Below are positions 5,593-32,528 of a DNA stretch of 64,000 bases, piece after piece. Each line of letters begins with the position of its first letter. Positions within the stretch are counted from its first letter, which is position 1. This DNA is from Pedobacter sp. SL55 (GTDB taxonomy: Bacteria > Bacteroidota > Bacteroidia > Sphingobacteriales > Sphingobacteriaceae), in assembly GCF_026625705.1 (NCBI RefSeq), contig NZ_CP113059.1, positions 1 through 64,000 on the forward strand, in the 5' to 3' direction. The notes below the pieces were generated by a model. It had not been told where the DNA came from, ran no database searches, and worked only from the letters and a program-made list of their open reading frames with translations. The position numbers and the translations under genes are program-made.

Positions 5593-5689
5593 TAAAAAAT
5601 GAAATATTTTTTATCTGCTCTTCTTCATCTTACCAACCCCTCTCTTCTCCCTCTTTCAAAACCTCAACCTCTTCCTCCGAAGCGGAGTG

Positions 5690-5720
5690 CAAAGGTAGAA
5701 AAACTTTTCCCTTTTCCAAG
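5690..5720 (-). promoter_or_regulatory. rRNA operon promoter, middle
   Basis: The -7 element TACCTTTG (5697-5690) and TTG (5719-5717) are separated by 19 bp. It lies in a 36-base block (5668-5703) that is repeated exactly at 5773-5808. A palindrome CTCCGCTTCGGAG (5687-5675) falls at or just after the expected start site. Confidence 0.8.
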
Positions 5721-5794
5721 AAAAAAATAAAACTTTTTTCTTTCCCGTTTGTTAGTGCTTTTCATCCAGTCCCCTCTTCCTCCGAAGCGGAGTG

Positions 5795-5825
5795 CAAAGG
5801 TAGAAAAAAATTATCCCTGCGCAAT
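5795..5825 (-). promoter_or_regulatory. rRNA operon promoter distal to 16S
   Basis: The third copy of TACCTTTG (5802-5795) has TTG (5824-5822) 19 bp upstream. It shares the duplicated 36-base block and the CTCCGCTTCGGAG palindrome (5792-5780) with the middle promoter. The two -7 elements are 105 bp apart. Confidence 0.78.
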
Positions 5826-6454
5826 ACAAACAGCGCTTTTTATTCCAAATAGCTATATAAACTGCTGACAAACAAGAAGAAAAAAATCATACTGGCCCAC
5901 TGCTTAAGATAACCTTATATATATGGTAGGATAAGGGATGGCTTTTGAAGTACATATAAGAGCATCTATTGTGCTTTTTAAACCGCTAAGAAAACGGAGA
6001 AACGCAAAGGCGCAATGATGCCTGCACCAAATTGTTGCTGGAATATGGTCTGCCGCCTATTACCTACCCGAATATCCATGTATTCATCTTTGCAGGGTAG
6101 GTACTTAAATAGTTTTATGGGCAGCTTTCTGCTTCAATAAAGGCCAGGATGAAGGATAGATAGTAGATCACTGGAAAAAAGCTCCGCGGAACTTGGCGAG
6201 AACTTCAAAAGATTTGTGGTAGAGAGACAACGATTGGGAATATTTGCCAATGATATATATAAGCAACACGGTTATTATTTGGCCAAGCGCAGTGCCTTTG
6301 TAAAATAGACCCGATGGAAATGGATCCCGATTTTTCATCGGGAGGAATAAACAGCCCCGAAGCGAATTCGGGACAGGCGGGACTACAGAAGCATAGTAGC
6401 CGTGCATCTGATTTGCTAATTAACTGGCTATAGATGCAAAGAAGTAATTTGGTT
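5826..6454. other. Non-coding stretch between rRNA promoters and histidine kinase
   Basis: No gene can be supported here. It holds a short CGCAAAG-type repeat fragment (near 6003-6012) and small palindromes around 6325-6385 (CCCGATTTTTCATCGGG and CCCGAAGCGAATTCGGG). A short open stretch around 6030-6100 has a coding-like feel but no start or intact frame. Confidence 0.5.
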
Positions 6455-18341: not shown

Positions 18342-19720
18342 ATGAAACTTAAAAACTTATTTACGCTAGCACTAACAGTGCTTTCGGGCTATGCTTTTGC
18401 CCAACAAAATGTTACACAGGTTAAAGGCCAACTAACATTTAAAAGAAATAATGTTAAACTATTTAAAGTAATTGATGGAAAAACTACTGAAATTGCCAAT
18501 GCTGTTCCAACTAAAAACGGAAAATTCGGCTTCCTATTTTACCCAGAATACGAAGGCGTTTACGTTATAGGCACTGGCAATGATATTTCGCCGAACGATA
18601 ACCATCTATTTTATTTTAAAGGCGGCGACCAATTAGACATACCTTATCTGATACCTCTTATGTACTGAATGGCAAATTGAACTCCAAAGAAAACATTGTA
18701 CTAAAACAATGGAGAGATTTGACTAACCCGCTCTATCAGAAAGCTATCAATTTCATGAAAGTGCAAAGTACCTTTATGGATTATTTTCCACAGCAAGAAG
18801 CCATTGTAGCTAAATCTAAAACTTTCTTAAACGGAAAAGCCACGGGCAATGCCAAGTTTGACCAGCAGATTAAAGAAATTATGCAATTGGATTTAGCGAG
18901 CTATGCCACGAATTTCTTGAACACACCGCGTTCTGCTCATCCAAGTATTGAAGAATACAGCGATTTCTACGCCACCTTAAAAGCTAACGAAATCTCCAAA
19001 ACTACCAAGAAAGTTTACAACTATCCCTACGGATTAAGAACACTTTCTGCTTTGGTTAGCGTGAATATGCGTCAAGACAAAAAACCATATAAACCAGGTG
19101 CAGAAGGGCTGACCACTTACATCTCTTACATTCCTAACGATACTTTGAAAGGTGATTTAGTTCTTGAAAATTTGGGTAGATACAAAGATTACGACAGCTA
19201 CAAAGCCATTACAGATCAATTTGGCAAATACTTATTAACTAAAGTGCAAAAAGAAAAAGACAATGCTTTGATTAGTCCGTTGTTGACTTACAAACCTGGT
19301 ACAGACGGGTTAAAATTCGCTTACCCGGATAAGGAAGGTAAACAAGTATCTTTTGCTAGTTTAAAAGGTAAAGTTGTTTTAATTGATGTTTGGGCTACTT
19401 GGTGCGGACCATGTAGAGCAGAATTTCCGAGTTTAAAACAATTAGAAAAAGATGTAGAAGGTAAACCCATTCAAATTGTAAGCATCTCTACCGATTCTGA
19501 AAAAGACAAAGAAAAGTGGCTGAAGATGATTAAAGACGAGAATTTAGGCGGAATGCAGTTATACGCTGGTCAAGACAATGAGTTTTCGAAATACTACAAA
19601 GTAAACACTATTCCTCGCTTTTTGGTATTCGATAAAAACGGAAAAATTGTTAGCGTAGATGCACCAAGACCTTCAAACCCGAAGTTAAAAGAATTGCTAT
19701 TTGCTGAGGCTGCCAAATAA
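18342..19720 (+). pseudogene. TlpA-like thiol-disulfide oxidoreductase, frameshifted
   Basis: Encodes a secreted thioredoxin-fold protein of about 459 residues once one base is restored. A signal peptide (ending GYAFAQ) and a DUF4369-like N-terminal domain lead to a C-terminal TlpA/AhpC-TSA domain with the active site WCGPC in DVWATWCGPCRAEF. The frame breaks at about 18639-18643. Adding one base after GACATA gives a continuous GDQLDISLSDTSYV and no further stop. Such proteins reduce or isomerise disulfides in the periplasm. It is the first of three thioredoxin-fold genes in a row. The break may be a sequencing error (see findings). Confidence 0.8.
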
Positions 19721-19809: not shown

Positions 19810-20966
19810 ATGAACACATTAAAAAAATGGTGTATTGCTATTGTTTTGTCTTTTTCAGCCAATATAGCAGTGGCACAACAAGACAGCATTATCATAGCTG
19901 GTTACATTAAAAACCTCGATAATAACAGCGTATCCTTTTCTATTCAAAAAGAAGTGTACAAAGGTTATGCTCAAAATGGCGTTTTTAAAATTGCTATTCC
20001 AAAACAAAACGTCCCTTGCTTAGTGCGTTCAAACATTTCAATTAAAAACCCCAACAATAGTACAGAAACAAAATCATCGCAAGTACCCTTACCTCAATTA
20101 GAGTTTTTTGTATATAAAAACAATTTAGAGATTAAGGGTAATACCAAAGAATATAGGTATTCATCAGTAACGGGAGATGCGGAAAACAATGCCTTTACGA
20201 TATTAAGAAACAACACCAAAGCAGATGAATTAATAAAGCTAAATACACTTAAAGAATTTACCGCAAGGCAACTTACAAAAGAAGAAAGCAATAATTTACA
20301 AAAAACAGGTTTAGAGGCCGGAAAACGAATTACCGAACAACAGCGCAAATTCATTAAAGAAAATCCAAATTTATTTGCTTCGATATTTCTTTTGGGTCGC
20401 ATGCAAAATTTTTATACCGCCGAAAATTACACCAATGCTTGGAATGGGCTGTCACCAAAATACAAAAATCATCCACTGGCAAAACCCATCCAAGATTATG
20501 TAAATAAGATGAAAGTAACTTTAGCAGGTACGCTAGCCACGTCATTTGAGCGCAAAGACAAGGATGGGAAAATCATCCGATTGGCGGATTACAAAGGCAA
20601 AACGGTGTTACTAGATTTTGGGGAAGCTGGTGCGGCCCATGTAGAGCAAGTCATCCACATCTAAAAGAACTTTATAGCAAATACAAAGCTGATGGTTTTG
20701 AAATCATCGCTATTGCGCAAGAAACGGCTAAAAATCTAGATGATGCTCGTGCCGCTTGGCTTAAAGCAATTGAAGAAGATCAAATTAATTGGGTGCATAT
20801 TCTAAATAGAGATGGAGTTGAGCAACAAAACATCTTGAAAGATTATGGTGTAAACTCATTTCCTACTAAAATTCTAGTCGACAAAGATGGAAAAATCATC
20901 TTACGCATTAGCGCCAGCGCTACCGATGATATTGACAAAGCGCTTGAAAAAATTTACGGACACTAG
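19810..20966 (+). pseudogene. Thioredoxin-fold (TlpA-like) protein, frameshifted
   Basis: About 385 residues if one T is restored. The signal peptide ends near IAVAQQ, followed by a DUF4369-like N-terminal domain and a C-terminal thioredoxin domain. The break is at about 20616-20622. Reading DFWGSWCGPCRASHP requires five T where four are present; as given, the frame runs into a stop at 20664. After restoration it continues through FPTKILVDKDGK to TAG 20964. The active-site CGPC is exactly at the break, so the given sequence could not encode a working redox site. It was intact recently or is a base-call error. Confidence 0.78.
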
Positions 20967-22158: not shown

Positions 22159-23299
22159 ATGAAAAAATTATTGATCACGCTAACTGCGATGGTTTTAAGT
22201 CTGAGCAGTTTTGCACAAAGTGGATTAGATAAAGCGCTCAGCAAAGCCAAAAAAGAAAACAAACTTGTTTTTGTAGATACGTATTTCACAGGTTGTATTC
22301 CATGTGAGCAAATGGATAGAGATGTATTTCCTAATGCCGTAGTGAGCAAAGAAATGGAAAAAAACTTTGTGATGCTTAAAGTGAATGTTTTTACAGAAAA
22401 ACTTGGCGATACCATCAAAGTTCAACACATTTTAAATGGCTTCCCTACCTTTCTCGTTTTAAATAGCGATGGAAATTTGGTCTCTTCTGTTTCTGGCTTT
22501 AAAGACCCGGGAGATTTGATAAGCTTTTTGGACAACGCAAAAATTCGTGCTAAAAAAGGGCAATCTCATTTGGGTTACTCATCTACTTATAACGAGAAAG
22601 ATTACCCTGCATTTTACCTAGAATTTGCTAAAACTAGAAAAGGCATTACACCACAAATTTTAAAAGAGTACAGCGATCAGTTGAAAGATTTTAAAGCCAA
22701 AAACAGCTTATTACCTTTTTTAATTGCTCGAACCACCAACGAAAAAGTTTCCGCAGAAATTTTAAAGGATTATAACGGCTACGCTAATTTATATGGCGAA
22801 GAAGTTTTACAACCCGTGGTTGATCGAGCACTAACAGCTGCTGCCCAAAACAAACTCAACTCATCTAGCAGCAAAGCTGATTTTGATGCTTTTTTAGCTT
22901 CCTATCAGAGCAAATTCCCAGCAGATCGTTGGAAAATTAACCTGCAAACTTTGGGAAGCAAGTTATATCTGGAAATGAAAAAAGATACAATAGGCTATCT
23001 AAATTTCGCCATTAGCAACCCAGTACTTTTACCAATATCATTTTACTGCTTTGGCAAATACTCTAGTTGCTAAAAAACAATTGTACGGCGAAACTGCAAA
23101 ATTATTTCTTCAATGGGCAAATGCCATAGTAAATGAAGAAAGCAGTATGGAAATCATTAAAAATGCGGCTTCATTAAATAAACGAATGGGTAGCAACGAA
23201 GGTTACAAGAAATTTATGCAAATGGCTATCAACAGAGCCAAAAAATACGCAATGCCTTACCAAGAAATGGAAGATAGTTTTAAGCAAGCTTCCAAATAA
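22159..23299 (+). pseudogene. Thioredoxin-fold protein (Thioredoxin_7 type), frameshifted
   Basis: About 379 residues once a one-base insertion is removed. The signal peptide ends SLSSFAQ. The thioredoxin fold carries CIPC in YFTGCIPCEQMDRDVF, followed by the cis-Pro strand GFPTFLVL. The break is in TTTT near 23040-23043; three T give PISFTALANTLVAKKQ and an open frame to 23299. As given, it stops at 23073. It begins 3 bases after the protease gene, so it is probably co-translated. The large helical C-terminal part has no clear assignment. Confidence 0.78.
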
Positions 23300-23384: not shown

Positions 23385-24113
23385 TTACAACTTCTTCAAC
23401 AATTGCTGTGCATTTTCGTATTGCACCGTCCCATCAGGTATTTTTTCGAGCCAAAATTTAGTATCAGCTTTTTTACCTTCTTTTAGGTAACTCATGGCTA
23501 CCGCATAGGCGGCATCATATTTATAAACAGATTCACCTTTAAATAAATCTTCTAACAACAATCTCCCTTTTGCCACTTCGTTGGTTTCCATTAAAATTAC
23601 GCCATAGTAATAAGCTACCATGGCATTTTGAGGATCGGTGTTGTTCAATTTTGCCAACGCAACCTTAGCTTCATTATATTTTTTAGCGTTAAATAAAGTG
23701 GCAGCTTCATCTAAATCAGTTTTTTCTGCACCACGCTCAGCAACATTCATTTGAGGGGCTGTGTTAAATTGCTCATACAAATCGCCTTTCCAAGGCGCCC
23801 AAATCAACATGCCCAACACCAACACCGCAGCCATACCAGAAACCCATCTCAAATAAGAACTCAACCTAACTACCTTTGGTTGTTCTGCAGTAAAATGCTC
23901 CTTATTCAAGCTTTGCAAAGTTCCTAACAATGCGTTTCGGTCAGCATCATCAGCCAATTCCATCTCTAAATTGCTGTGAATATCATAGTAATCCGCAAGG
24001 TACTGCTTCAATTCCTCATCTTCTGTCAAGAAATTTTCGAATTCCAAGCGCTCAGCTTCGTTCAAATCTCCCTCCACATATTGGGCAGTCCATAAAATTT
24101 TGTCCTCAGTCAT
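23385..24113 (-). CDS. Membrane anti-sigma-like protein with periplasmic TPR domain
   Basis: A 242-residue protein. A cytoplasmic N-terminal region (about 1-90) has EGDLNEAERLEFENFLTED, resembling the N-terminal parts of anti-sigma factors. One membrane segment follows near 94-109 (SGMAAVLVLGMLIW), then WKGDLYEQF and TPR-like helices ending AYAVAMSYLKEGKKADTKFW. The start ATG 24113 overlaps the sigma gene stop by 8 bases (ATGACTGA), so the two are translationally coupled. It probably restrains the sigma factor and senses the periplasm. Its C-terminal half is closely similar to the protein at 31938-32528. The anti-sigma role is inferred from coupling and topology. Confidence 0.8.
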   Translation of the reverse strand: MTEDKILWTAQYVEGDLNEAERLEFENFLTEDEELKQYLADYYDIHSNLEMELADDADRNALLGTLQSLNKEHFTAEQPKVVRLSSYLRWVSGMAAVLVLGMLIWAPWKGDLYEQFNTAPQMNVAERGAEKTDLDEAATLFNAKKYNEAKVALAKLNNTDPQNAMVAYYYGVILMETNEVAKGRLLLEDLFKGESVYKYDAAYAVAMSYLKEGKKADTKFWLEKIPDGTVQYENAQQLLKKL

Positions 24114-24669
24114 TTTTTCTATCAATTAATTTAACCAAGCTTGCCATACATTCCGATTTCTTTTTTCTCAAATAACCATACGTTACACCCAAAACTTCTG
24201 CTACTTTCTCTTGCGGTTCTCCTTTCATGCTCCAGCTAATAATTTCCTTACAACGTTCGCCCAGTTTTTCGAAAGCTTTTAAAAATAAAGCAGCTTGTTC
24301 TTTCTGTTGTGCTAAAACTTCCGCCTGTTCAAATGTATCCTCGCCAATATGTAATAAATCATCCTCGTTTTTTGTTACCGGGCTTATCGATCTTTTTTTC
24401 AGTTCGTTAAGCCACTTACGCTTACAAACCAGTAGTAAAAATGGTTCAAACGGACAAGTAAGCTCTAAATTCTTATATTTTGCCTGGTTGTAAATATCCA
24501 CCAAAGCTTCCTGAAAAATATCGGCAGCATCATCTGCACTGCCATTGTTAAACAACACAAACGATTTTACTTTACCCGCACATTTCTTATAAATTTCGTT
24601 AACCAAAGCCACCTCATTGTTTAGCAGCGCAGTTACATAACGTTGGTCTTCATGTACTTTTTTGGTCAT
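24106..24669 (-). CDS. ECF-type sigma-70 factor
   Basis: A 187-residue sigma factor. Region 2 is seen in DDAADIFQEALVDIYNQA and region 4 in FEKLGERCKEIISWSMKG with the helix-turn-helix QEKVAEVLGVTYGYLRKKK. It starts at ATG 24669 (MTKKVHEDQ). The membrane-TPR gene overlaps its 3' end. Its likely targets are the divergent genes to the right (lipoprotein, PKD protein, TPR-CHAT protein), inferred from proximity. This type, with TPR-bearing partners, differs from the FecI-type sigma at 9117. Confidence 0.9.
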   Translation of the reverse strand: MTKKVHEDQRYVTALLNNEVALVNEIYKKCAGKVKSFVLFNNGSADDAADIFQEALVDIYNQAKYKNLELTCPFEPFLLLVCKRKWLNELKKRSISPVTKNEDDLLHIGEDTFEQAEVLAQQKEQAALFLKAFEKLGERCKEIISWSMKGEPQEKVAEVLGVTYGYLRKKKSECMASLVKLIDRKND

Positions 24670-25173
24670 TGATGATATTGATTTATGCTAAAGTATAATT
24701 TATTAGGGAAAGTATTTCGTTTATTAAGAAGAAAAGTTGCGCTCTACTATAAGCTAGGGAAAGTCCCGCTTTTCACTTCAAGTCCGCACTCGTTTCACTC
24801 GCTTACGGGCTTTACATTTCAATCGGGTTTAACTAACCAAGGCCTGTACTACTAGGAGCTTTCACAAAGCTCTATCCCGCTTGCTAAAGGTTTGTAAAAG
24901 CTAACGCACAATTGGCCTTTGCATTCTTTGCCAAAACTTCCAAAAAACTTCGCGTTTGCAATTAACGCAAAGAAAAATAAGAGCCACGCAAAGGACGCAA
25001 AGTTTGAAAATTGTTATGCCTCTTATACACCAACGCTTCTTTTTGGGCAAATTTCATTTTATCATTTAAAATTTTAAAAAACATAGGTAACATTTTTTGA
25101 ATGCCGTTGATATACCTCCAAACGGCGGTTGCTGAAAAGCCAAAACAGAGTAAGCTCAACTAAAAAAAATGTG
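24670..25173. other. Long divergent intergenic region with repeat fragments
   Basis: No gene is supported. The right part (about 24960-25010) contains CGCAAAG repeats (ACGCAAAGAA, CACGCAAAGGACGCAAAG) like those at the right end of the window. A block ending TTCAATCGGGTTTAACTAAC (24818-24837) recurs with one change at 38626-38645. Promoters for the divergent genes must lie here, but I see no clear consensus for them. Confidence 0.5.
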
Positions 25174-26175
25174 ATGAAAACTTTAAACTTAAAAAATACG
25201 CTCTCAAAAAATACGCTTGTAATAATTGTTTTAGCATTAACAATTTCAGCCTTGTTTCAGGCCTGCAAAAAAGACAGAACACCTAGAAACTCGGCTGCTA
25301 GCGCTAGAGAATTTACGGCATTGTTTGGACCAAGGGCACAAAAAATGCAAATTAATGCGGGCATCTCTAATACTTTCACGCTACAAGGTGGCACAAAAAT
25401 TACCATTCCAGCAAACGCCTTCAAATTAAATGGCGTAACCGTTACTGGCAACGTAGTAATTACCGCCGGCGAATTTTTAAAACGTAGTGCTGTATTATTT
25501 AGCGGCACCAACACCAACCACATTAGCGGCGCACCTTTAGAATCTGATGGCTTTATTTTTCTTAACGCATCGGTTAACGGCACAAATGTAGATAAACAGC
25601 TAGTCGCAAACATACAAATGGCTGTACCAACCACCAACACTCGCAACACCCAAATTTGGGAAGGTGTAGAAAAAGTGGACAATGCCAACCAAATGGCTTG
25701 GCAAGCGCCAGCACAAAACCCCAATGGCGCAGCCGGCGGTATTCCTCGCGAAAGCACACCGCAAGCAGGTTTTTACAACTTCGAAATGGGGAACTTAGGA
25801 TGGATCAATTGTGATGTATTTTATGCCTATACTAATCCAAAAACCACTACCAGTGTAAGCATAGCAAACAACCCGGGTAGTTTTGCAACTTTTATGGGCT
25901 TTACGGGCGAAACCTTTGTTTTCTTTTGCGCCAAAGGCAGCAACGTAGTAGCTCAACTATATACTTACGATGGCCCTAATGGTGTAAAAAGTTATACCAA
26001 CATGATGCCCGTAGGAGTTCAAGGCAAATACATTTCTTTCTCAATTAAAGATGGCAAATACTATTACGCAGAGCAAGAAACCACCATTACGGCCAACCAA
26101 AACATTACTTTAACCCTAGCCGAAACTACAGAAAGCGGCATACAACAAGTAATTAACTCATTAAATACCTATTAA
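25174..26175 (+). CDS. Hypothetical lipoprotein of the CHAT locus
   Basis: A 333-residue putative lipoprotein (lipobox LFQAC, Cys31). The middle shows TKITIPANAFKLNG, then VVITAGEFLKRSAVLFSG and PLESDGFIFLNASVNG. This pattern of beta-sandwich domains is common in Bacteroidota surface proteins. Function is not recognised. The start at ATG 25174 fits a lipoprotein signal; the frame is open to a TTG at 25129. It is divergent from the sigma pair and followed by a terminator, so it forms its own unit. Confidence 0.72.
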   Translation: MKTLNLKNTLSKNTLVIIVLALTISALFQACKKDRTPRNSAASAREFTALFGPRAQKMQINAGISNTFTLQGGTKITIPANAFKLNGVTVTGNVVITAGEFLKRSAVLFSGTNTNHISGAPLESDGFIFLNASVNGTNVDKQLVANIQMAVPTTNTRNTQIWEGVEKVDNANQMAWQAPAQNPNGAAGGIPRESTPQAGFYNFEMGNLGWINCDVFYAYTNPKTTTSVSIANNPGSFATFMGFTGETFVFFCAKGSNVVAQLYTYDGPNGVKSYTNMMPVGVQGKYISFSIKDGKYYYAEQETTITANQNITLTLAETTESGIQQVINSLNTY

Positions 26176-26196
26176 AGATATCCCAATCTGTTAACA

Positions 26197-26230
26197 CAAA
26201 AGACGAAGCTCATTTGGGCTTTGTCTTTTT
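26197..26230 (+). terminator. Rho-independent terminator
   Basis: AAAAGACGAAGC and GCTTTGTCTTTT form an interrupted stem followed by a T-run (CTTTTT). It lies 22 bases after the lipoprotein stop. Confidence 0.7.
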
Positions 26231-26363
26231 ATCGTTGATAAACCACATAGACACATAGGAGAGTGTAAACCATTATTTCTAATTCTGATTTTCTCATTTG
26301 GAAAAAACTATGTGCCTATGTGCTAAAAAAGTTGTAGAAATATTTCCTTATATTTATTTAGCC

Positions 26364-28367
26364 ATGACCAAATTACTAACCTCCATATTATGCTGTTTTT
26401 GCTTAACGGCGGCTTTAAAAGCGCAGGTATTGCCTAGTGATACCGTACCGGCAATTATCCGTTATGAAACAGCAAACGGAGTTACCAAATTTACTAGCGA
26501 GTTACGACCATTAAGAGCAATTGCAGGTGCTCCAGCGCCTTTCTACACTTATTTTTGGGAGTTTGGCGATGGTGGCTTTAGTTTCGAGGAAAATCCATCA
26601 CATATCTATACCAGATACGATTCGATTATGGTGCGTTTGTTTGCCACCAACAACTATGACGATGGCAAACGGCCCCCAACCCGACCAAAGCCTATTGTAA
26701 GGCCACTGGGGCCAAAACCTGCGGTAGCCAAGCCAATGCTTGCTGCCAATGGTAGCTCTAATTTGTTTAAAATGGGCGGCAATATAGAAATGAAAACCAA
26801 TTGTATGCCCAAACCTGGCGATGATATGATGCTGGTTTTTGGTTATCGTAATAAAGTAGAAAATGGGCAACAGAACTTAAACGGCACCATTGCCATTCTA
26901 TATAACGATGTGGAGTTTAGCAATAATAATTTCGAATTGGCAGCAGCAAGAACTTATCACCATGAAAAAAAATCAGATTTAAAACCGCTCCTGAATACTG
27001 CTTACCTAAGCAGACAGCAAAAGCCAATTTATTATGCTTCGTTAGGCGGTGGCTTAAGTTTATCCTCGGCAGAAAAAATATTATTGAAAGACCAAGCCAA
27101 GGCTTTTAAAAATCAGCAGAGCTGGAAGTTTGAAAACCTAAAACAAAACGAAGAACGTTTCGTTTTTATGCACTTTAAAACTACACCAGAAATGTTGAAA
27201 GACACCAATGCGGTAGTACGTATTTCGGGCGCTTTTATTCCAGATAATCCTTTGGTAGAAACTGAGTTTTTTAACTTAGAATTACAAATTGTTGCTTCTC
27301 ACGATCCAAACAAAATGGTATTGCGCAAGAGCAGAATGAACTATCGTTTAACTGGAAAAAACAGAGAACTTACCTATAAAGTACGCTTCCAAAATACAGG
27401 CAAAGGGCCTGCAAAAAAAATTGATGTAGGCGTTAATATTGCTGAAGTTTTTGATCCAACAATGTTAAAAGTTACCAAAACAAAACCCGAAGTAATTACC
27501 TGCGATTCGGCTTATGCCAACCAAAGCTGTTTAAAAACTTTCTTTAGGGCAGATAGTGTCCATTTTGTGTTTAGCAATATTTACCTACCCGGAATGCAGC
27601 AAAAAGGAGTTAACGATGCAGACTCTACCCAAGGTTTTGTAGAATATAAAATCAGATTTAAAGAGAAACCTCCGAAACTGCCCATCAAAAGCGGAGCAGC
27701 AATTGTCTTTGATAAAAATGAACCTATCTATACCAACAGAGCTGCTGGCAGATTTAAAATGGGTCTTTCGCCTGGCGTAATTGTAGGTTATGGTTTTCCT
27801 TTCGAGACTAATAACAACAATTACCTCAACCATAAAAATGTGGCTTTGGGCGCTACGCTATCGCCTTATGCATCGCATCGTTACTATTGGCAGGTAGAAC
27901 TTTACTTCAATTCTTTTAATGAGACAACTTATCGAGTACCCATTGCAACAGAAGTAAGGAAAGATACAGTAATTAATAATGTAGCTTACCAAATTATGGA
28001 TAAGCAGCTTTTTAAAACCACCAAAGTGGCTACCATTAATGCCGTTCCGCTACAAATGCGCTACAATATTAATAAGTATGTTGGCGTTGGTGCAGGTGCT
28101 TTGGTGGCCTTGGATATGTATAACAGAACCTCTAGCGAATTACGTTACAAATTGAGAACGCAAAACGCGTCGGGTACGGTAACAGATGTAGATTTAAACC
28201 GAGCGATGGAAGATTTAAAAGATAGCTTTTCGGAAGTTCGGGTATCTTTCTTTGCTGATGTACAACTGGGCTTGGTGCGTGTTGGACCTGCCTTGGGCTT
28301 TAGGTATATTTATGACCCAAAAACCAACAACAACCGCATGACGACTTATGTAAGCTGGAAGTTTTAA
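26364..28367 (+). CDS. PKD-domain protein with C-terminal outer membrane barrel
   Basis: A 667-residue protein starting at ATG 26364 (MTKLLTSILC). The signal peptide ends ALKAQ. A PKD domain near 40-100 has the hallmark FWEFGDGGFSFEENPSHIYT. A central region (about 320-450) with LTYKVRFQNTGKGPAKKIDV resembles DUF11-type sandwich repeats. The last 200 residues look like an outer-membrane beta-barrel (VGVGAGALVALDMY, FRYIYDPKT), ending in WKF. It probably sits in the outer membrane with binding domains attached. The last 34 coding/3' bases are duplicated beyond the RAYT cassette (see repeats). Confidence 0.78.
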   Translation: MTKLLTSILCCFCLTAALKAQVLPSDTVPAIIRYETANGVTKFTSELRPLRAIAGAPAPFYTYFWEFGDGGFSFEENPSHIYTRYDSIMVRLFATNNYDDGKRPPTRPKPIVRPLGPKPAVAKPMLAANGSSNLFKMGGNIEMKTNCMPKPGDDMMLVFGYRNKVENGQQNLNGTIAILYNDVEFSNNNFELAAARTYHHEKKSDLKPLLNTAYLSRQQKPIYYASLGGGLSLSSAEKILLKDQAKAFKNQQSWKFENLKQNEERFVFMHFKTTPEMLKDTNAVVRISGAFIPDNPLVETEFFNLELQIVASHDPNKMVLRKSRMNYRLTGKNRELTYKVRFQNTGKGPAKKIDVGVNIAEVFDPTMLKVTKTKPEVITCDSAYANQSCLKTFFRADSVHFVFSNIYLPGMQQKGVNDADSTQGFVEYKIRFKEKPPKLPIKSGAAIVFDKNEPIYTNRAAGRFKMGLSPGVIVGYGFPFETNNNNYLNHKNVALGATLSPYASHRYYWQVELYFNSFNETTYRVPIATEVRKDTVINNVAYQIMDKQLFKTTKVATINAVPLQMRYNINKYVGVGAGALVALDMYNRTSSELRYKLRTQNASGTVTDVDLNRAMEDLKDSFSEVRVSFFADVQLGLVRVGPALGFRYIYDPKTNNNRMTTYVSWKF

Positions 28368-28384
28368 GTTTTACGTGATAAATT
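28351..28384 (+). repeat. Direct repeat flanking the RAYT cassette, left copy
   Basis: 34 bases identical to 29211-29244, exactly 860 bp apart. This copy spans the stop codon of the PKD gene (SWKF, then TAA). Similarity extends upstream imperfectly (ATGACGACTTATG versus ATGACAACCTACT). Confidence 0.85.
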
Positions 28385-28395
28385 AGGTAAGCATT

Positions 28396-28424
28396 AACCC
28401 TTTGGTTGGTGTTATCACCAACCA
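28396..28424 (+). repeat. REP-like hairpin 1
   Basis: TTGGTTGGTG TTAT CACCAACCAA makes a 10-bp perfect stem with a 4-base loop, preceded by AACCC. It is the best-formed of five related copies around the RAYT gene. Confidence 0.8.
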
Positions 28425-28462
28425 ACAGCCTATTATTCCAAATGAAAAGCAATATCTACTAT

Positions 28463-28490
28463 CGTGGCTGGCGATAACACCGAACCACGG
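28463..28490 (-). repeat. REP-like hairpin 2, inverted
   Basis: CGTGGCTGGCGATAACACC with GAACCACGG is a diverged copy of the same hairpin in the opposite orientation to copy 1. Confidence 0.65.
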
Positions 28491-28529
28491 GCAAATAACA
28501 ACTTCAGAATTAACCGTCAAAGCTCAACA

Positions 28530-28559
28530 AACCCTTTGGTTGTTGTTATTACCAACCAA
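28530..28559 (+). repeat. REP-like hairpin 3
   Basis: AACCCTTTGGTTGTTGTTAT then TACCAACCAA is in the same orientation as copy 1, with two or three changes. It lies 31 bases before the RAYT start. Confidence 0.7.
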
Positions 28560-28590
28560 TCCAAATCCAACCAATCCAATCAGTAATCTT

Positions 28591-29103
28591 ATGAAAGGTA
28601 ACATTGAATTCTTTACTGCCACTTGTTTAAACTGGCAAAATCTTTTGGAAGCTGAAACACATAAAAAAATCGTGCTAGCAAGTCTAAAGTTTCTAGTAGA
28701 AGAAAATAGGATATGGCTTTACGCCTACGTGATCATGCCCAATCATATCCATCTACTTTGGCGTAAACAAGATCTCTGGATAGAAAATAGTATTGCTCAG
28801 AACTTCTTGAAATACACCGCCCAACAAATAAAGTTTAATTTATTGGCCAACAATCCGCAAGAGTTAGTTAAATACAAAAGCTCTCAAGCAGATAGGCAGT
28901 ATCATTTTTGGGAAAGAAGACCTCATCAAGCAACTATGAACAATAGAAATATCGTAGAACAGAAATTAAACTACATACATCAAAATCCAGTTAAGAAGGG
29001 CTTATGTCTATCGAATTTAGATTATCCATATTCTTCTGCAAACTTCTATGAAGGGAGAGGTAATGATATGCTATTAACTCATTATATGGATCACATTTGG
29101 TAG
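28591..29103 (+). CDS. REP-associated tyrosine transposase (RAYT, Y1 family)
   Basis: A 170-residue HUH endonuclease of the IS200/IS605-like TnpA_REP group. The HUH motif is seen in YVIMPNHIHLLW. The catalytic Tyr is likely the one in LNYIHQNPVKKG, a stretch conserved in the family. Arg/Trp-rich FWERRPHQATM follows the usual pattern. RAYTs nick single-stranded REP hairpins, and five such hairpins flank this gene. The start ATG 28591 (MKGNIEFFTA) is chosen because the frame upstream runs through the REP copies. The whole cassette lies between 34-base direct repeats. Confidence 0.9.
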   Translation: MKGNIEFFTATCLNWQNLLEAETHKKIVLASLKFLVEENRIWLYAYVIMPNHIHLLWRKQDLWIENSIAQNFLKYTAQQIKFNLLANNPQELVKYKSSQADRQYHFWERRPHQATMNNRNIVEQKLNYIHQNPVKKGLCLSNLDYPYSSANFYEGRGNDMLLTHYMDHIW

Positions 29104-29108
29104 AAAGA

Positions 29109-29136
29109 GTGGTTGGTGATAACACCAAACCACAGG
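29109..29136 (-). repeat. REP-like hairpin 4, inverted
   Basis: GTGGTTGGTGATAACACCAA then ACCACAGG starts 5 bases after the RAYT stop. It matches copy 2 better than copy 1, so the gene is bracketed by oppositely oriented copies. Confidence 0.78.
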
Positions 29137-29163
29137 CAAACCCACAATGACTGAATTACTACG

Positions 29164-29190
29164 AACCTTTGGTTGGTAGTATCAATAACC
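29164..29190 (+). repeat. REP-like hairpin 5
   Basis: AACCTTTGGTTGGTAGTATC then AATAACC is a degraded copy in the orientation of copy 1, just before the right direct repeat. Confidence 0.6.
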
Positions 29191-29210
29191 CAAACAAATG
29201 ACAACCTACT

Positions 29211-29244
29211 TAAGCTGGAAGTTTTAAGTTTTACGTGATAAATT
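29211..29244 (+). repeat. Direct repeat flanking the RAYT cassette, right copy
   Basis: This is identical over 34 bases to 28351-28384, the end of the PKD gene. Translated in frame with the preceding ATGACAACC it would again give an SWKF-stop ending. It lies 43 bases before the TPR-CHAT gene. Confidence 0.85.
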
Positions 29245-29287
29245 GTAGGTTTGGGCTAGTAACTGGAATTTACTCAACTGAAAACCT

Positions 29288-31955
29288 ATGCCCTGCCGAT
29301 ACTTAAAATATGTATGCTTACTGCTCTTGCTTTTACAAAGCAGTTTAGTAATAGCGCAGGGCGATGATTTGCAAACCAAATTAAAAAGCTTTAAGGCAAA
29401 TAATGATCTTACCAATTGGATTTACGAGCAGCTAGATTACGCCAACGAAAATCCTCAAACGGCAACCGAAAACATTCTTAAAATTCAGAAAGAGCGTTGG
29501 CGGAATGCCAAAACCGACGAAGAACGTTTTGCTTGGCTAAACCTACTGAGCACTTTGGCTTACTACCAGTTATTAGACGGCAATATTTTTGGCTCCATCA
29601 GTTCTTATGAAAATGCCCTCAGCTTTTTTCGAAAACATAAAATATTAGATTATGATGTTGTAGAGTACATCTACAAACCTTTAGGGAATAACTACACCCG
29701 ACTTGGCGACTATGAACGAGCCTTGTTCATCCAAAAACAGAGTATAGAATTTCAGCATTCTTACAGCGAAGACAAAAACAAAACCGCGGCCATTTATTGT
29801 AATATGGCTATTTCCTACCGCTCAATGGGCAAATTAGAAGATGCTTATAAAGCAATTGAAAGTGGACTAGAATTAAAATCCGATAATTTTAATCGTATAA
29901 TGCTAAATAACGTTTATGCCGATGTATTATACGATGATGGCAATTACAAAAAAGCAGCAACAGTTATAGAAAGTAACATTAGTAAACAGAAGGCCAGCAA
30001 TGCCGAAAATGCCTATTGGCTAATGAGCTCGTACACTACTGCCGGTAATATCTATTTAAAGCAGCAACAAATTACAAAAGCTGGTGTTTTTTATGCAAAA
30101 GCGTTGCAGTTGCTAGCTCATTATTATCCTCATGGCAGAATACGTGAACGAGCCAACCTTTATACTCAAATTGGGGCAACCTATTTGACACAAAACAAAA
30201 CAAACGAGGCCATTAGCTATGCGCAAAAAACATTAAAAACACTGGGCATTAACACTACACAAAATATTTATGGCGATAATAAGTTAGTAGAAGTTTTTAT
30301 GCTGTTAGCAAAAGCTCATCTGCAATTAAAACAGTCCGAAAAAGCACTGCAGAATATCAATTTAAGTCTACTTTCTGCAGATAAAATTAGAAATGAATTT
30401 GCCGCAGATAAAACTAAGGAGCGATTACAAGACTACCTTAAACAAATTGTAGAGCAAGGAATTGAAATCAGCTATCAACTTTACGAGCAAACCAAAGACA
30501 AGAAGTATTTACAACAGATTTTAACTTTAGCAGAGCAGAGCAAAAGCCGAACCTTGCTAGATCAAATGCAGCGAAATCAACAATCGGTTTCGAACAATAT
30601 CAAAAACGATAGTCTTTTCCTTAAAAAGCAACAACTGGAACGTAACATCAGCTTTTTAGAAAAACAAGCAATAGAAGAACCTAATCAACACGCTACCGAA
30701 AACATCGAAAGCTTAAAGTACGACTTGGCTTTGGTAAACAAAACGCTATCTAAAAAATATCAATACTTAAATTTTGAGGATTACCAAACCCCTATTCAAA
30801 TTCAAAAACTGCCCAATCATCGGTTTATCGAATACTTTATCGGAGAAAAAGACGTGTACATCATTAATATTTATCAGCATAAAATAGAAAACGTAATCAA
30901 ATTACCCCAGGCAGAGAAAATAAAATCAGACCTACGAAATTTCGTACAAACGTATTTTCATAGTGGTGCTAATGCCATGCTGAACAATCCGAAAGCCTTT
31001 TTTAAGGCCTCTCATGATATTTATCAATTCATATTAGCGCCAATAAAGCTTAAGCCATATGAACAGTTAACCATTATACCCGACGGGATTTTAGGTTATC
31101 TCTCTTTTGATGGTCTAATTACCCAAAACAACTATACCGAAAATATCGGCAAATGGCCATTTTTAATTAAAAACCATACTATAGATTACGCTTTTTCTAT
31201 TCAAACACTACTTACAGAAAAGAAAGCAACAACATCAAACACTTTTTCTGGTTTATTTATTACGCATAGCGAAGGCAATAAAACTCAATTAAACGCCATT
31301 ACCACCGAAGCCGGTTTAATTAAGAAGTACGTTGCGGGCAATTTTTTATTTGACAATGAAGTAAACCCAAAATCTTTTGAGCAATTATTTACCAAGAGCA
31401 AAGTAATGCACATTGGTACCCATGCTTATTTAACCGGAGTAAACCACGAACCAACCTTAGATTTTGGCAAAGAAAAAAATGTATTTGTTCGAGCTTTCGG
31501 CCAAGCAAAGTGCACCTTCTCTGGTAGTGCTTAGTGCTTGCCAAACAGCAGATGGCATATTGGCCAATGGAGAAGGAATTATTAGTTTATCAAGAGGTTT
31601 TAATGCCATTGGCACCACTGCAACCATTGCCAGCTTGTGGAATGTAAATGATAATGCTGCTGCACAAATTATGGCAGGTTTCTATCAATCACTCGAAAAA
31701 AATAAAAATGCCAGCGAAGCACTTAGACAAGCCAAACTAAATTGGCTTAGCACGGCTAAAACCAGTAATGCCATGCTTCTTCCGTATTATTGGGACAGTT
31801 TAATTTATATGGGTAAAAACCAAGAAATTGAATTACAAAAACCCATTAACTGGCTAGAAAAACCATTCTTAGCTATTTATTGTGTACTCTTGCTGGCATC
31901 TATTTTCGCTATTAGAAAAGTAAAACTTGCAAAAAGACTATTGCCTAACGGTTAA
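29288..31955 (+). pseudogene. Secreted TPR-CHAT domain protease-like protein, frameshifted
   Basis: About 888 residues when one A is removed from the A7 run at 31473-31479. A signal peptide (CLLLLLLQSSLVIAQ) is followed by several TPRs (about 80-410), a coiled-coil stretch near 435-480, and a C-terminal CHAT domain, the caspase-like peptidase fold. The catalytic dyad is His712 (HIGTHAYLTG) and Cys751 (VVLSACQTADG). A membrane segment (FLAIYCVLLLASIFAI) lies near the C terminus, with a short basic tail. Topology therefore places the peptidase outside the cytoplasm. The break lies between the two catalytic residues; otherwise the frame is clean. Substrate unknown. The 3' end overlaps the convergent gene by 18 bases. 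Confidence 0.82.
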
Positions 31956-32528
31956 ATTTTCCAATTTTGCTAAAATTTCTTGCGATTGATTATAGTAAAT
32001 GGTGTTTTTGGGCACTTTTACGAGCCAACTCTTGCTCTCCGCATTCTTTTCTTCCTTCAAAAAAATAAGTGATAAAAGATAAGCTGCCTCCGCTTTGCTA
32101 TTGCCATCATTACTGGCATAAATTGGATACAATACTTTTTTGGCAATTTCTAAATTATCATTAGCGATTAAAACCATAGCGTATTTTTTTGCTAAGCTCA
32201 GTTTATTTTTATTGTTGAGATACAATTTAGAAACGAGTTGCGCAGCAGCATCATAGTTTCCCTGCTTAAAATAGGTTGCAGCCTGCTTAAACTCTAACGC
32301 AGGTTCTTCGGCTAACTTTGCAACTATAAAACGATGATCAATCTGGTAAAGTTCGTAAAGATTAGGCCTCCAAGATAGCCAAGCTAATGAACCAACTGCA
32401 ACTACGAGAAGAAGCTTTGCAACAGCATTTGTCAAAAATGCTTTTAGCTTTACAACTATGGTAGCTTTTAAAGTATTGTGCCCAACTCCCGAAGACGCAT
32501 CGGTCTTTGGAAAAGCAAAGGTGTTCAT
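31938..32528 (-). CDS. Small membrane-anchored TPR protein, paralog of the anti-sigma-like protein
   Basis: A 196-residue protein with a short cytoplasmic N terminus (about 37 residues), a membrane segment near 36-50 (AVAKLLLVVAVGSLAWLSW) and a periplasmic TPR region. Its C-terminal half aligns with that of the protein at 23385-24113: LYELYQ/LYEQFN, FKQAATYFKQGNYDAA/LDEAATLFNAKKYNEA, AESKSWLVKVP/ADTKFWLEKIP. It lacks the long cytoplasmic, presumed sigma-binding region, and has no sigma gene beside it. It might compete for or assemble with the other TPR protein. It starts at ATG 32528. Confidence 0.75.
   Translation of the reverse strand: MNTFAFPKTDASSGVGHNTLKATIVVKLKAFLTNAVAKLLLVVAVGSLAWLSWRPNLYELYQIDHRFIVAKLAEEPALEFKQAATYFKQGNYDAAAQLVSKLYLNNKNKLSLAKKYAMVLIANDNLEIAKKVLYPIYASNDGNSKAEAAYLLSLIFLKEEKNAESKSWLVKVPKNTIYYNQSQEILAKLENLTVRQ

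Follow-up and report, generated by a model that had tools for sequence, protein, structure and literature searches.

The window analysed here, the first 64,000 nucleotides (nt) of the forward strand of contig NZ_CP113059.1 from Pedobacter sp. SL55 (NCBI RefSeq assembly GCF_026625705.1), contains between positions 23,385 and 32,528 a locus built around an extracytoplasmic function (ECF) sigma factor. The sigma gene is accompanied by genes for an anti-sigma-like membrane protein with tetratricopeptide repeats (TPR), here called ANTI, a lipoprotein (LIPO), a PKD-type protein (BARREL), and a TPR protein with a caspase-like CHAT domain. The locus is best explained as an envelope-to-transcription signalling module in which CHAT, acting in the periplasm, controls the anti-sigma factor, a reading to which we assign a probability of about 0.5. 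The gene set, its co-occurrence among genomes, its association with a promoter, the content of the regulon, the predicted protein topology, and the conservation of one arginine in ANTI were computed directly.

Organization of the Locus

The sigma and ANTI genes lie on the minus strand, LIPO, BARREL, and CHAT are divergent from them on the plus strand, and a further gene, TPR2 (described below), converges on CHAT. The members of the module and the elements in front of LIPO are as follows:

23385-24113, minus strand: ANTI, membrane anti-sigma-like protein with a transmembrane helix (TM) and TPR, 242 amino acids (aa), co-directional with the sigma gene and overlapping it by 8 nt
24106-24669, minus strand: ECF sigma factor, 187 aa (TIGR02937, 63.6 bits, cut-off 42.9)
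25086-25113, plus strand: putative sigma promoter GGTAACA-N15-TGATAT, exact motif match
25122-25156, plus strand: DUF805b cis-regulatory RNA element in the LIPO leader (RF02914, 35.8 bits, gathering threshold 35.6)
25174 (ATG)-26175, plus strand: LIPO, lipoprotein, 333 aa, with a predicted ZU5/GAIN-like domain at 49-218 and a C-terminal Ig-like domain
26364-28367, plus strand: BARREL, PKD, DUF7619, and DUF7849 protein (PF25233, 206.5 bits; PF24595, 68.1 bits)
29288-31534, plus strand: first piece of TPR-CHAT, with signal sequence, TPR, and the first half of the CHAT domain including His (PF13424, PF00515, PF12770 positions 4-155)
31464-31955, plus strand: second piece of TPR-CHAT, with the second half of the CHAT domain including Cys and a C-terminal TM (PF12770 positions 184-288, 97.9 bits)

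The sigma protein also passes the Pfam threshold for Sigma70_r2 (24.1 bits, cut-off 24). The start of BARREL was placed by alignment to relatives, and the protein is probably located in the outer membrane. The original prediction for this DNA had described a sigma gene overlapped by a membrane-TPR gene, which is borne out by the 8 nt shared between the two. It had also described divergent genes for a lipoprotein, a PKD/barrel protein, and a TPR-CHAT protein; these genes are present on the plus strand, while the PKD_4 match of BARREL (24.4 bits) stays under the Pfam cut-off of 27. The promoter, the DUF805b element, and a transposase gene within the operon did not figure in it.

Co-occurrence and Conserved Neighborhood

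Among 121 genomes of the family Sphingobacteriaceae, sigma orthologues occur in 21, the window's included (43-100% identity, at least 150 bits; 43-94% identity to the window's sigma in the 20 other genomes), and the next intact sigma matches fall to at most 36% identity and under 87 bits. A CHAT orthologue (profile A1, >600 bits) was found in 22 genomes, namely all 21 sigma genomes, the window's CHAT being counted as two pieces, and one (G019) of the 100 remaining genomes. The same holds inside the window's genus, where CHAT is present in 5 of 5 sigma genomes and in none of the 9 others. At 17 of the 20 orthologue loci fetched, the sigma-ANTI pair adjoins BARREL and CHAT and is divergent from them; in G040, G103, and G118 (loci L041-L043) CHAT-BARREL lies at another place, away from sigma. 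In G019, ANTI and CHAT are divergent neighbors with no sigma seen at that place. None of these neighbors is present at seven loci (L054-L060) whose sigma is more distant. In G094 (locus L053), the sigma gene is a remnant with stops and ANTI is kept with E-R-E instead of E-R-G, while profile and exact-pattern searches found neither a CHAT orthologue nor a promoter site; the system here is in the course of piecemeal loss.

A wider set of 80 named loci around sigma orthologues, the best 80 of 139, represents a small number of related families (Pedobacter, Mucilaginibacter, Nubsella, Chitinophaga, Niastella, and kin), and some of these loci end at contig ends. ANTI is found at all 80, sigma at 79 (by profile), BARREL at 73, CHAT at 69, and LIPO at 65, with LIPO, BARREL, and CHAT together at 57. 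In a sample of 395 genomes from the phylum, 20 contain DUF7849, the family represented by BARREL (19 of them with a match that passes the cut-off), and at the ten DUF7849 loci fetched from outside the family, CHAT adjoins BARREL in all ten and sigma, ANTI, BARREL, and CHAT stand together in eight. CHAT itself is present in 188 of the 395 genomes. Twenty of these CHAT genes were picked by hand, in roughly even steps among the matches listed; an ECF gene and an ANTI-like gene lie within about 8 kb in eight (L165, L167, L171, L172, L173, L175, L180, and L182), with low ANTI-like scores (22-31 bits) in six of the eight, some of these genomes sharing one family and short contigs limiting some loci. 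Six distant loci (L157-L162) chosen for sigma-CHAT proximity were left out of this association evidence. Related trios of ECF sigma, anti-sigma, and TPR-CHAT are spread over Bacteroidota.

The original prediction had proposed a search for co-occurrence, and had named a lack of conserved neighborhood across Bacteroidota, or a sigma factor acting on unrelated loci only, as outcomes that would speak against it. The search instead returned a real and conserved module, with CHAT in 21/21 sigma genomes versus 1/100 others, with ANTI, BARREL, and CHAT at most named loci, and with a putative promoter directed into the operon at 55 of the 80.

A Putative Promoter and Its Regulon

The intergenic regions of the orthologues in the window's branch have in common the motif GGTAACA-N15-TGATAT. 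Only exact matches were used, as a search allowing one mismatch did no better than the reversed control (10 vs 10) and was dropped. Exact copies occur at 44 sites in 18 of the 21 sigma genomes, with G040, G032, and G045 lacking them, and at one site per genome in 11 of the 100 other family genomes; the reversed motif occurs seven times over all 121. Inside the window's genus, the motif is present in 5 of 5 sigma genomes and 0 of 9 others. In the sigma genomes, 41 of 44 sites lie at most 80 nt from an ATG open reading frame (ORF) 25 aa or longer, with a hydrophobic N-terminus in 39 of the 41 ORFs, compared with 4 of 11 sites and 3 of 4 ORFs in the other genomes and with a baseline of 119 of 306 ORFs. 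A stop-free frame of at least 130 codons runs across 9 of the 11 sites in the control genomes, compared with 9 of the 44 in sigma genomes. At the named loci, the motif is directed into the operon in 55 of 80 and occurs elsewhere three times in those 1.58 Mb. The sigma factor very probably recognizes this promoter. Excerpts of PMC9723704 describe a different Bacteroidota ECF motif, with a CGT box and type IX secretion system genes.

The four exact copies in the window's genome precede LIPO, a paralogue of LIPO that scores 213.7 bits against the LIPO profile, a 184-aa lipoprotein, and a 26-aa membrane peptide. Across genomes, nearly all regulon genes encode exported proteins, namely LIPO-family lipoproteins, OmpA-type proteins, and small membrane peptides. 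When ten regulon proteins were scanned, three had an OmpA domain, one matched SdrD_B, and six had no Pfam family. Seven lipoproteins tested from outside the LIPO locus scored 88-214 bits against the LIPO profile, which did not match two others tested (L066; L110 and L089 unmatched). At L039, L040, L042, L044, and G000:C1:3341010, ORFs of 26-44 aa that resemble single membrane helices directly follow the promoter, often before a lipoprotein gene.

Of 14 named loci tested, 8 carry a DUF805b element that passes the gathering threshold in the corresponding leader, downstream of the motif. Of its three copies in the window's genome, the two not at LIPO (G000:C1:863727 and 896593) precede a gene for a small putative peptide and a further short ORF with a secreted product, and neither has the sigma promoter nearby.

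The ANTI Linker, the CHAT Protein, and Their Co-variation

ANTI is predicted to consist of cytoplasmic helices, one TM, a linker containing E126-R127-G128, and periplasmic TPR. With an overlapping co-directional gene, an N-terminal helical cytoplasmic part, and a TM, it has the layout of a membrane anti-sigma factor, and there is little doubt that it is the anti-sigma of this ECF sigma. The linker residues E126-R127 are kept in 37 of 37 ANTI orthologues and sit in a coil next to the TPR in the AlphaFold2 prediction. In 24 further ANTI-like proteins read by eye, one of which (L150) is also counted among the 37, as L247, an Arg followed by Gly, Ser, Ala, or Asn is present in 22; a 13-bit match, L161_0, was dropped from this reading of distant linkers. 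In contrast, seven ANTI paralogues that lie beside CHAT genes have kept the TM and TPR and lack E-R-G.

The CHAT protein was analyzed from the intact genes of relatives. Residues H728, H732, C771, and D808 (L034 numbering) are invariant in 17 CHAT relatives, and the CHAT domain exceeds the Pfam cut-off in both pieces of the window. Among CHATs of at least 820 aa, a hydropathy rule finds a hydrophobic N-terminus in 59 of 66 and a C-terminal TM in 57 of 66, and by these export signals they differ from a cytoplasmic TPR-CHAT of the Craspase type. Judged by a sequence motif, D808 would be the counterpart of the Asp of separase. Excerpts of PMC10317155 report that separase binds the P1 Arg via an invariant Asp, and a model of P1-Arg binding by separase appears in those of PMC4626109.

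Protein distances were compared across the 56 loci that have all five proteins. With sigma and BARREL removed, the periplasmic part of ANTI co-varies with the TPR part of CHAT at a partial r of 0.39 (bootstrap 0.25-0.50), compared with 0.24 for the catalytic part of CHAT, 0.12 for LIPO, and 0.10 for its own cytoplasmic part. The TPR part of CHAT may touch more than one partner or may simply vary in rate.

LIPO may resemble the ZU5/GAIN/FIIND domains of ankyrins, adhesion G protein-coupled receptors, PIDD, and NLRP1 in predicted fold alone, with no Pfam match to them. By sequence, its 37 members hit 21 Pfam families at E up to 1, none in more than three members; the best match is BT_3987-like_N (E 9.3e-5), and no PDB sequence match was found. 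An autoproteolytic ZU5 was rejected, as no conserved nucleophile occupies the expected place, residues 208-209, which are variable in the 37 sequences; this place is presumed from the ranges of CD97/CL1 and from known cleavage sites.

Proposed Mechanism

In the resting state, the cytoplasmic helices of ANTI would hold sigma at the inner membrane. An envelope event, in the periplasm or at the outer membrane, would be detected by LIPO, BARREL, and the TPR part of CHAT; a sensor role for LIPO and BARREL is possible if somewhat short of probable. Activated CHAT, periplasmic and anchored by its C-terminal TM, would then cut ANTI after the linker Arg, between the TM and the TPR, and RseP-type proteolysis would release sigma; the window's genome encodes an RseP family protein (257 bits, cut-off 147.55). 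The freed sigma would transcribe LIPO-BARREL-CHAT, forming a positive loop in the window's branch, and would also drive a small regulon that encodes exported lipoproteins, OmpA-type proteins, and membrane peptides.

That CHAT, a predicted protease, acts on ANTI appears to us an even proposition, and the placing of the cut after the linker Arg is more tentative. Control of ANTI by CHAT is supported indirectly because CHAT is present in 21 of 21 sigma genomes, in three of which it lies away from sigma, because the linker Arg is conserved and missing from the paralogues, because the periplasmic part of ANTI partly co-varies with the CHAT TPR part, and because there is precedent in Csx29, Csx30, and CASP-sigma, as excerpted from PMC10028731. 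In its fullest form, the proposal would make CHAT a periplasmic caspase-type protease that delivers the first cut to an ECF anti-sigma at an invariant Arg, in the manner of separase after ExxR, with the freed sigma making more protease, LIPO, and BARREL and the Arg-less paralogues serving as uncuttable brakes; this complete chain is conceivable, and we advance it tentatively.

Counter-evidence and Alternative Explanations

Several observations weigh against this mechanism. The motif is missing at the operon in 25 of the 80 named loci, and at none of the 80 does it point at sigma, so that autoregulation of sigma through the same motif was rejected. The positive loop is not universal, because BARREL-CHAT is not preceded by an exact copy of the promoter in a divergent branch (L046-L052) that accounts for 7 of the 17 loci where CHAT adjoins sigma; such copies as this branch has are found in front of OmpA or LIPO genes or at a different locus. 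The joint presence of sigma and CHAT has a Fisher p of 1.3e-22 in a test that ignores kinship. ANTI scores 30 bits against the curated anti-sigma family NF052375, well under its cut-off of 100. An Asp four places after a Trp is found in nearly all CHAT domains compared and is not specific to these proteins. Met replaces the linker Arg in the ANTI of L159 and L160, and their CHATs read Glu at the Asp place (ungapped, by eye), but these CHATs have an Asp one place earlier, which makes the pair at best a weak single event. LIPO co-varies with the CHAT TPR part nearly as highly (0.36), and a common rate of change could account for the co-variation. In the window itself, CHAT is divided between two frames. 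Finally, cleavage, binding, transcription, signal direction, trigger, substrate, and cut site are all inferred.

Apart from these points, at L046, L048, L049, L050, and L051 it is the OmpA-type gene adjoining CHAT that carries the sigma promoter, and BARREL does not.

The alternative that survives best is that CHAT is output alone. The TPR of ANTI would sense the signal by binding a ligand or LIPO/BARREL directly, and CHAT, once induced by sigma, would cut other envelope proteins or remodel the surface, with the linker Arg a contact or helix-capping residue. TPR domains bind peptides, and an E-R pair beside the TPR in all 37 orthologues would suit such a role, as would a CHAT operon that carries the sigma promoter in most named loci and a regulon whose remaining members are plain envelope proteins. 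This account sits poorly with the presence of CHAT in every sigma genome, even where the promoter is not before CHAT, with the seven paralogues that keep TM and TPR yet lack E-R-G, and with G019, where ANTI stands beside CHAT with no sigma seen there. We regard it as unlikely.

In a defense or conflict system, CHAT would instead be an effector protease triggered by envelope injury from phage or toxin, with sigma as the alarm. Caspase-fold proteases and ECF sigmas do occur in conflict systems (excerpts of PMC8195603 and PMC10028731), divergence between the close species of L034 and L033 is faster in CHAT and ANTI than in sigma, LIPO, and BARREL, and the second CHAT piece has weak PADLOC matches to BovA (21.7 and 17.3 bits). 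Against this, the other five of the six sequences scanned have no PADLOC match, the locus adjoins glgB in the window, L033, L034, and L036 rather than lying in an island, and no nuclease or nucleoside triphosphatase partner is present among the window genes read, all of which leaves defense an improbable role. That the genes are neighbors without a functional tie, their synteny due to close relationship alone, draws on the few related families behind the named loci and is very hard to reconcile with the joint presence and absence of promoter and CHAT inside one genus, the common promoter, and the full set at eight of ten DUF7849 loci from outside the family.

Frame Break and Neighboring Features

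The original prediction credited the window's CHAT with a complete His/Cys dyad, and this did not hold, as the His half and the Cys half sit in different frames of this assembly. Of eight close relatives whose proteins were aligned to the window, seven had CHAT in the fetched stretch, each as one ORF, and all seven fall in two window frames that meet at about 31446-31477; the similarity of the first piece stops at 31477. At the named loci, 66 of 69 CHATs adjoining sigma are single ORFs of 869-1029 aa, and the three shorter ones (L194, L238, and L260) lie near a contig end. Two further window genes, near 18641 and near 23012-23043, are split between frames when compared with three relatives each, and three relatives match just the last part of a thioredoxin-like gene near 20616. 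The broken or shortened genes at these upstream positions are of thioredoxin type. Because relatives have intact versions of all four disrupted genes, which in the window lie within 13 kb, the CHAT break is likely an assembly or sequencing error; true gene decay is possible. A programmed frameshift or phase switch was set aside, as three neighboring genes are broken or shortened likewise.

Two further genes belong to the stretch:

28402-29103, plus strand: REP-associated tyrosine transposase gene (NF047646, 87 bits, cut-off 80)
31938-32528, minus strand: TPR2, truncated ANTI paralogue with TM and TPR (24-34% identity in matches of ANTI proteins)

The transposase gene lies inside the operon, between BARREL and CHAT, and is outside the membership of the module; among 101 relatives' loci scanned, it is present only at L034 and L184, which are one locus of Pedobacter ureilyticus. 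TPR2 is the second membrane-TPR gene with which the locus was originally thought to close, and it does so. It is without the cytoplasmic part and, in its juxtamembrane sequence, without the E-R-G motif. Between sigma and LIPO, a Flavo-1 RNA match at 24758-24834 on the minus strand (RF01705, 36.6 bits) stays under the gathering threshold of 42. In L033, minisatellite-like repeats of the ACCAACGCAGTTGC type occupy the sigma-lipoprotein interval at about 5640-6070.

Relation to Known Systems and Implications

FecI-FecR-FecA surface signalling consists of an ECF sigma, a membrane anti-sigma, and an outer-membrane partner. The present module has the same three kinds of component, but no FecR, plug, or TonB-barrel match was found in ANTI or BARREL by Pfam scan (E up to 0.01). 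Regulated proteolysis in the RseA-DegS-RseP pathway of sigma-E uses a PDZ serine protease as first cutter. As in that pathway, a membrane anti-sigma with a periplasmic part would be met by a periplasmic first cutter and an RseP family protein, whereas the proposed first cutter is caspase-like and encoded in the regulon. DegS-RseA is also treated in the excerpts of PMC10028731.

The closest experimental precedent for CHAT cutting ANTI comes from the same source, in which the TPR-CHAT protease Csx29 cuts Csx30, the inhibitor of the ECF factor CASP-sigma (PMC10028731, excerpts). This type III-E CRISPR system (Craspase/DiCASP) likewise unites a TPR-CHAT protease, a sigma inhibitor, and an ECF sigma, with sigma motifs at its own locus. 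In contrast, the CHAT described here carries a signal sequence as well as a C-terminal TM, the inhibitor is a membrane-spanning protein with TPR, and a lipoprotein and a barrel protein are added. Csx29 matches marginally by sequence (E 1.3), with Ser at the Asp place of these CHATs. No Cas7-11 (gRAMP) partner or CRISPR array was recognized among the neighboring ORFs read, the genome not having been searched for them. Systems with EACC2/TRADD-N similarly place a caspase-fold protease, an ECF sigma, and a TPR protein in one neighborhood, with an EACC2-caspase and DUF1822 TPR proteins according to excerpts of PMC8195603, where the present module has an exported CHAT and envelope partners.

The original prediction knew of no described system of exactly this composition. 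For the exact module this stands, as no description was found in the open-licence literature, judged by title and abstract; combinations of a caspase-fold protease and an ECF sigma with either an inhibitor or a TPR protein are described elsewhere. Anti-sigma factors under protease control are already known, as are caspase-fold proteases associated with ECF sigmas; within that literature, no account was found of a periplasmic caspase-like branch whose partners are a barrel and a ZU5-like protein and which has a defined promoter and a regulon.

The module would give DUF7849 proteins a role and places the DUF805b RNA element in a defined operon, and with the promoter sequence a regulon can be predicted for roughly one in six of the sampled family genomes (sigma in 21 of 121). 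If the proposed mechanism is true, the CHAT genes of Bacteroidota would gain a candidate substrate and residue, and caspase-fold proteolysis would be an envelope stress switch in a large phylum, beyond CRISPR and cell death.

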